From positions 1 to 64,000 of the forward strand of contig DVIL01000074.1 of NCBI GenBank assembly GCA_018711305.1: a stretch of DNA of 64,000 nucleotides. The letters are read 5' to 3'. Below the pieces are notes generated by a model. The model ran no database searches. It had not been told where the DNA came from and was given only the letters and a program-made list of their open reading frames with translations. The DNA is from Candidatus Coprenecus stercorigallinarum (GTDB taxonomy: Bacteria; Bacteroidota; Bacteroidia; Bacteroidales; UBA932). This document shows, in pieces, positions 59,324 to 60,202 of the stretch (its first letter is position 1; every line of letters starts with the position of its first letter). The translations under genes and the position numbers were made by a program.

Positions 59324-59416
59324 CGTTCAATAGTACAGGCTGCGGGATCCTCCCCACCTTCGGCGGGTCCCCTCCCTTTTCGGGAGCCAAAGTCCCGCAG
59401 CCTGTACTATTGAACG
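59324..59416. repeat. Long hairpin: 24-bp perfect inverted repeat with a 45-nt structured loop
   Basis: CGTTCAATAGTACAGGCTGCGGGA (59324-59347) and TCCCGCAGCCTGTACTATTGAACG (59393-59416). Confidence 0.9.
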
Positions 59417-59502: not shown

Positions 59503-60132
59503 TTAAAGTCTGTCTGTAAACAGAATCCCTTCGAGATGATCGACTTCGTGCTGGAATATGACCGCAGTGTAACCGTCCACCGTATCGCGGACTGATGACA
59601 GTGTTGCCGGATCGGTATAGCGGATGACTATCCGCTGCGAGCGTTCCACTTCTCCGGCCAAATCCGGAATGGAAAGGTAGCCTTCCGGACCTGTCTGCGT
59701 CTCATCAGAAAAATACTCGATATGGATATTGGGATACACCTCAAACGGATATCCCGGCTTGTCGTAACGCATTACAGCCACTACCCTGCGGTTCAGTCCG
59801 ACCTGGGGAGCCGCCAGCCCCACCCCGTCCTGAGTGGAATCCGTCACCGTAGTCACCATCCTTCGGGCCAGACGGTCATAGACCTCCGACTGAAGATCCT
59901 CCGCTGTCAGGTCCGTGCAATGTTTCCGCAGCAGCAGCGAGTCTTCCCGCGAAGTGACCAGCAACACCCTCATCAGCCCGTCAGAGGACATCACCAGTTC
60001 AGTCTCTTCTGTCGTAAGACGTGCCGCTGTCCCGCCACATCCGGTGAGCATCAGCATCATAACCAGCATTACTGATACAGTCGCCATCAAAGTCGCCTGC
60101 CTTGAATTGATTACGGTTTTTACCATGTGCAA
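59503..60132 (-). CDS. Peptide deformylase homologue with lipoprotein signal peptide
   Basis: Lipobox MLMLTGCGG; GVGLAAPQVG (motif 1), EGYLS (motif 2, Cys to Tyr), QHEVDHLEG (motif 3). Confidence 0.9.
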   Translation of the reverse strand: MHMVKTVINSRQATLMATVSVMLVMMLMLTGCGGTAARLTTEETELVMSSDGLMRVLLVTSREDSLLLRKHCTDLTAEDLQSEVYDRLARRMVTTVTDSTQDGVGLAAPQVGLNRRVVAVMRYDKPGYPFEVYPNIHIEYFSDETQTGPEGYLSIPDLAGEVERSQRIVIRYTDPATLSSVRDTVDGYTAVIFQHEVDHLEGILFTDRL

Positions 60133-60172
60133 AATATTTACGCAAATGTAGAAAATTCAAAAAGGAGATAGT

Positions 60173-60202
60173 AAAAAAGCCCGGCACAGATACCGGGCTT
60201 TT
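60173..60202 (-). terminator. Intrinsic terminator after tsf (palindromic, possibly bidirectional)
   Basis: AAAAAAGCCCGG-CACAGATA-CCGGGCTTTT. Confidence 0.8.

Follow-up and report, generated by a model that had tools for sequence, protein, structure and literature searches.

A predicted clade of exported Bacteroidota peptide deformylases, with a Candidatus Coprenecus stercorigallinarum member carrying tyrosine in place of the metal-ligand cysteine

Peptide deformylase is usually regarded as a cytoplasmic, ribosome-bound enzyme and as a drug target. A deformylase gene found in a 64,000-nucleotide stretch of the Candidatus Coprenecus stercorigallinarum genome (contig DVIL01000074.1, positions 1 to 64,000; hereafter the window) encodes a lipoprotein-type signal as well as a Tyr at the position of a metal-binding Cys, which raises the question of what such an enzyme would do outside the cytoplasm and whether its export and its altered metal site belong together. 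An earlier note on this DNA had linked the two. In the analysis presented here, they proved to be separate matters, the lipoprotein location being a trait of the family and the Tyr being confined to the window copy. The gene probably belongs to a separate, exported lineage of Bacteroidota deformylases that would deformylate formyl-Met peptides beyond the cytoplasm, and the Cys-to-Tyr change most likely lowers or abolishes the activity of the window copy. The clade is the finding, and the Tyr is a one-genome curiosity.

The open reading frame lies on the reverse strand at 59503-60132 and has TTG as its first codon. The first ATG, at 60126, leads into MVKTVINSRQ...MLMLTGC and gives a gene of 59503-60126 for a predicted lipoprotein of 207 amino acids. 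Its assignment as a peptide deformylase is based on the reading frame, a Pfam PF01327 match at residues 67-209 counted from the TTG (E 1.6e-33, 116 bits against a cut-off of 22.8 bits), and a fold match to solved deformylases. Both by sequence and by fold, the closest solved proteins are peptide deformylases; an AlphaFold2 model (mean pLDDT 77.5, made with ten relatives) retrieved deformylases as all of its best 50 PDB matches, with a best E of 5e-9. Homologs from the same genus are 76-81% identical over almost the full length, a match well beyond chance. On the same strand, motif I (GVGLAAPQVG, 59797-59826) is intact, as is motif III (QHEVDHLEG, 59527-59553) with both metal His residues and the catalytic Glu. 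Motif II (59671-59685) reads EGYLS with the codon TAC, as the earlier note had described, so that the Cys-His-His ligand set is incomplete. The protein ends 7 residues past motif III.

Upstream of the gene, a possible Bacteroidetes -7 promoter element (TACATTTG, 60143-60150, reverse strand) was recognized by eye, and no clear -33 element was seen beside it in the same inspection. A terminator-like hairpin, AAAAGCCCGG-TATCTGTG-CCGGGCTTTT, lies at 60175-60202 between tsf and the deformylase gene; it was also found by eye and is absent from the output of a stricter scanner. Its position suggests that the deformylase gene may be transcribed separately from tsf. Just downstream of the gene, at 59324-59416, lies a stem-loop about 93 bases in length whose arms are 24 bases each. 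Elsewhere in the genome it recurs in about ten near full-length copies, 97-100% identical, as well as in several partial copies, and it is a dispersed REP- or MITE-like element.

The N-terminus, MVKTVINSRQATLMATVSVMLVMMLMLTGC, has the sequence pattern of a type II (lipoprotein) signal peptide: a positive n-region, a hydrophobic core and a lipobox. The region 60037-60126 (reverse strand) comprises the signal peptide MVKTVINSRQATLMATVSVMLVMMLMLTG and Cys30, the predicted lipid-modified residue of the lipobox L-T-G-C. The lipobox is kept in the homologs of the genus although the signal sequence evolves fast. A true start downstream of the lipobox, which would have removed the signal, is unlikely because the genus homologs that were checked have a lipobox of their own upstream of the domain, within signal sequences that have diverged. 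Signal peptidase II is present in the genome (LspA, PF01252, G000:C14:52319-52876). In Bacteroidetes, surface lipoproteins carry acidic residues shortly past the Cys as their export signal (PMC5080379). The window protein continues after its Cys with GGTAA, without such a signal, and at least two acidic residues at positions +2 to +6 were observed in only 3 of 139 lipoproteins of the clade. From this pattern, the window protein would be lipidated and located in the outer membrane, facing the periplasm. For the clade as a whole, action in the periplasm or at the cell surface is predicted, with the periplasm-facing position as the better guess.

The genome contains one other deformylase (G000:C3:11962-12441, 167.8 bits), a canonical cytoplasmic enzyme with EGCLS that lacks a signal peptide and has a C-terminal tail of the usual kind. 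The possibility that the window gene encodes the only deformylase in the genome has thus been removed, and it is unlikely to be the essential one.

Relatives of the window protein were collected by domain score and not by signal, giving 175 non-redundant proteins, to which 42 were added later, for a total of about 217. All are from Bacteroidota except one (L116), from a deltaproteobacterial MAG. Within the genus, 9 of 19 genomes have such a relative in addition to the canonical copy, and a profile of the exported form has matches in about 170 of 300 genomes from the family (best E < 1e-36). In the order as a whole, matches were counted in the same way in about 43 of 296 genomes, which represent nearly 30 families. 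The form is sparser elsewhere in the phylum, including Weeksellaceae, Sphingobacteriaceae, Flavobacteriaceae, Saprospiraceae, Dysgonomonadaceae and others. Among the 175 proteins, 115 match a strict lipobox pattern, and another 47 carry either a signal peptide or a membrane anchor, in several cases with a lipobox of unusual form; for most of the remaining 13, an export signal was seen by eye. In a tree of 60 exported and 66 other deformylases, calculated with the signal peptide left out, all the exported proteins of the sample lie to one side of a branch supported at 99% (SH-aLRT), and the canonical Bacteroidota copies group apart. Export thus appears to be the trait of a single lineage.

The exported clade shares the fold and motifs I and III with canonical bacterial Def (PF01327), and nearly all of its members share motif II; the catalytic motifs are conserved throughout the clade. 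It differs from canonical Def in its signal peptide, its separate position in the tree and the absence of the C-terminal tail from most of its members, the median length past motif III being 12 residues versus 37 in canonical relatives. In Escherichia coli, the C-terminal region of deformylase docks on the ribosome. An interaction role of the C-terminus is also mentioned in a 2025 survey of accessory deformylases (PMC12690207). The three clade members that were run against the NCBIfam peptide deformylase models, the window protein and two others, all fall below the equivalog cut-offs; the window copy, which unlike canonical Def lacks the metal Cys, scores 88.2 bits against 103.95 for TIGR00079 and 101.3 against 125 for NF001159. 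The genes do not have a conserved neighborhood: no shared partner was found across the 113 loci with enough flank, and the commonest neighbor clusters, present at no more than 11 of these loci, look like unrelated housekeeping genes. Gene context therefore provides no support for a particular pathway. At five loci (L092, L107, L147 and others; Flavobacteriaceae where named), the exported deformylase follows apparent mreC, mreD, PBP2 and rodA genes, as judged from sequence.

Several unusual architectures have been identified in the clade. In three distinct proteins of about 765 residues (L111, L200 and L201), a lipobox deformylase is joined to a Peptidase_M14 zinc carboxypeptidase; the M14 profile was run on L111, of which the other two are near copies. 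Three lipoproteins of 386-396 residues (L317-L319) have two deformylase domains, the second of which is intact. Their first domain has Gln changed to Glu in motif I and an altered motif II in which the Cys is kept, and in two of the three, motif III reads QHAITH or QHAMTH, a Glu-to-Ala change that leaves the metal ligands in place and removes the catalytic Glu. This first domain is possibly a pseudo-deformylase. In two proteins of the Sphingobacteriaceae type (L061 and L089), a type I signal precedes a fusion of DUF1684 and the deformylase, a possible clue to DUF1684, and in L320 and L321, the deformylase is preceded by about 300 residues of other exported sequence. L203, L204, L205, L212, L213 and others were considered as fusions and rejected, since their deformylase has its own internal signal peptide and the open frame merely runs on. 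L206 and L322, in which the deformylase is followed by a flavin reductase or deaminase, may reflect missing stops.

The metal ligand of motif II is a Cys in 159 of the 175 proteins collected first and in those of the 42 later ones with a readable motif, about 200 in total, which read EGCLS or DGCLS. EGDLS, with Asp as the ligand, was found in 14 clade proteins, all Weeksellaceae or matching family f6, and these carry type I signals and not lipoboxes. EGYLS is present in the window protein only, among the approximately 217 members, and it was therefore not found to go together with the lipobox, as had been supposed. The exported deformylases of the Chryseobacterium and Epilithonimonas type (L062-L068, L093-L096, L099, L103, L108 and L109) all show EGDLS together with a type I signal peptide and no lipobox. 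Oxidation of the iron in deformylase takes the Cys ligand along (PMC10751367), and an aerobic lifestyle was considered as an explanation for the loss of the Cys. It fits the Asp in Weeksellaceae, but members from Sphingobacteriaceae and Flavobacteriaceae keep the Cys, and it is retained as a lead only.

The sister species provides the nearest relative (L033, 82% identical), and this protein has EGCLS. Between the mature parts of the two proteins, dS is 0.37 and dN 0.051 (dN/dS about 0.14). The window branch, scored at positions on which five outgroups agree, carries 12 synonymous changes and 3 nonsynonymous ones, among them Cys-to-Tyr; the sister's branch has 7 amino-acid changes. Nonsynonymous sites outnumber synonymous ones about threefold, and without selection along the whole branch, nonsynonymous changes in the tens would have been expected. 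Apart from the Tyr, the window protein is under strong purifying selection, and the few changes indicate that the Tyr is very recent, that the protein remains of use despite it, or that the base is wrong.

If the Tyr is very recent, the clade would be real and exported, and the window copy would be in decay, killed by the loss of its Cys and becoming a pseudogene. This is a possible, if tentative, reading. It agrees with the fact that elsewhere in the clade the Cys is kept or replaced by Asp only, and with the absence of the gene from about half of the genus, which indicates that loss is common, but the reading frame and all the other catalytic residues are intact, and the counts of 3 amino-acid changes against the sister's 7, and of 12 synonymous against 3 nonsynonymous changes, speak against decay.

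If the protein is instead still useful, it could bind formyl or other peptides and leave them uncleaved, as the degenerate first domain of the tandem lipoproteins may do. The earlier note had suggested altered catalysis or binding without cleavage; this could apply to the window copy and not to the family, considering that about 200 exported relatives, the nearest one included, carry the Cys. The apparent selection on the window protein and the combination of degenerate and intact domains in the tandem proteins are in line with such a role. However, the degenerate domains keep the Cys and both His, so that catalysis would have been lost by a different route, and the window protein retains the catalytic Glu. 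The tandem proteins thus represent a separate path to non-catalytic domains in the clade. Binding by the window copy is considered unlikely.

An error of assembly or sequencing, or a mixture of strains, in which case the true protein would have EGCLS like most other exported deformylases of the clade, is regarded as improbable. The genome is a draft (102 contigs, 94% complete) and the one genome of its species in the analysis, TAC differs from TGC by one transition, and all close relatives have a Cys. Their codons are TGT in five (L033-L037) and TGC in one, so that in the nearest relatives the third base differs from TAC as well, and consensus errors are rare per base.

Protection from actinonin and other deformylase inhibitors, as provided by the accessory deformylases of Vibrio, is a very improbable role for the exported enzymes: accessory deformylases can give actinonin resistance (PMC12690207) and the position equal to E. 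coli Arg97 is variable in the clade, but an exported enzyme is unable to replace the cytoplasmic target, the Arg is kept in 127 of 175 proteins, and the gene neighborhoods showed no association with mobile elements.

The preferred reading, that of a deformylase clade working beyond the cytoplasm, agrees with the extracytoplasmic role proposed earlier, which best accounts for the clade as a whole. Nascent chains bound by SRP are spared deformylation, and formyl-Met can persist on N-out membrane proteins and on signal peptides once freed (PMC5454389), which makes substrates beyond the inner membrane plausible. The exported enzymes may deformylate formyl-Met peptides missed by the cytoplasmic enzyme, with N-out membrane proteins, cleaved signal peptides and incoming peptides as candidate substrates. 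Removal of the formyl cap would open these peptides to aminopeptidases or other exported peptidases for degradation. Processing of formyl-Met peptides outside the cytoplasm is suggested by the M14 fusions, which fit a role in peptide breakdown and amount to three distinct proteins, and by the tandem proteins, in which one of the two domains is degenerate. In the window copy, weak or no activity with iron is predicted as a result of the Cys loss, and deformylation would most likely be lowered or abolished while the remainder of the protein stays under selection, unless the Tyr or another metal supports activity. The wider proposal, judged evenly balanced, is that Bacteroidota have an undescribed extracytoplasmic deformylation system, in which the exported clade, with its carboxypeptidase fusions, additional degenerate domains and Asp ligands, would deformylate formyl-Met peptides.

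Accessory deformylases have been surveyed recently: half of the species have more than one deformylase, and the motifs vary (PMC12690207). Vibrio cholerae Def2 and the integron and plasmid enzymes of that survey are likewise second deformylases beside an essential one; in contrast to the exported clade, these support growth in place of Def1 and confer actinonin tolerance. The type 3 deformylases of Gram-positive bacteria, described as weakly active or inactive where cited in PMC12690207, are also accessory copies, with altered motifs, whereas the exported clade keeps its motifs almost everywhere and is exported. The text of PMC12690207 does not mention lipoproteins or Bacteroid- taxa, and it mentions signal peptides and the periplasm only for substrates and a cloning vector. 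No description of an exported, secreted, periplasmic or lipoprotein deformylase was found in the non-subscription literature searched. As far as this literature goes, the exported clade is rated as a new form of a known family and the Tyr change as minor.

The clade offers natural experiments on the metal site, with Cys, Asp and Tyr at the same position. Its wide distribution would mean that many Bacteroidota, from the gut and from the environment, handle formyl-Met peptides beyond the cytoplasm as well, which is of relevance to peptide salvage and to formyl peptide supply. Formyl peptides strongly attract white blood cells of the host, and extracytoplasmic deformylation, if true, could limit how much of them arrives at host receptors.
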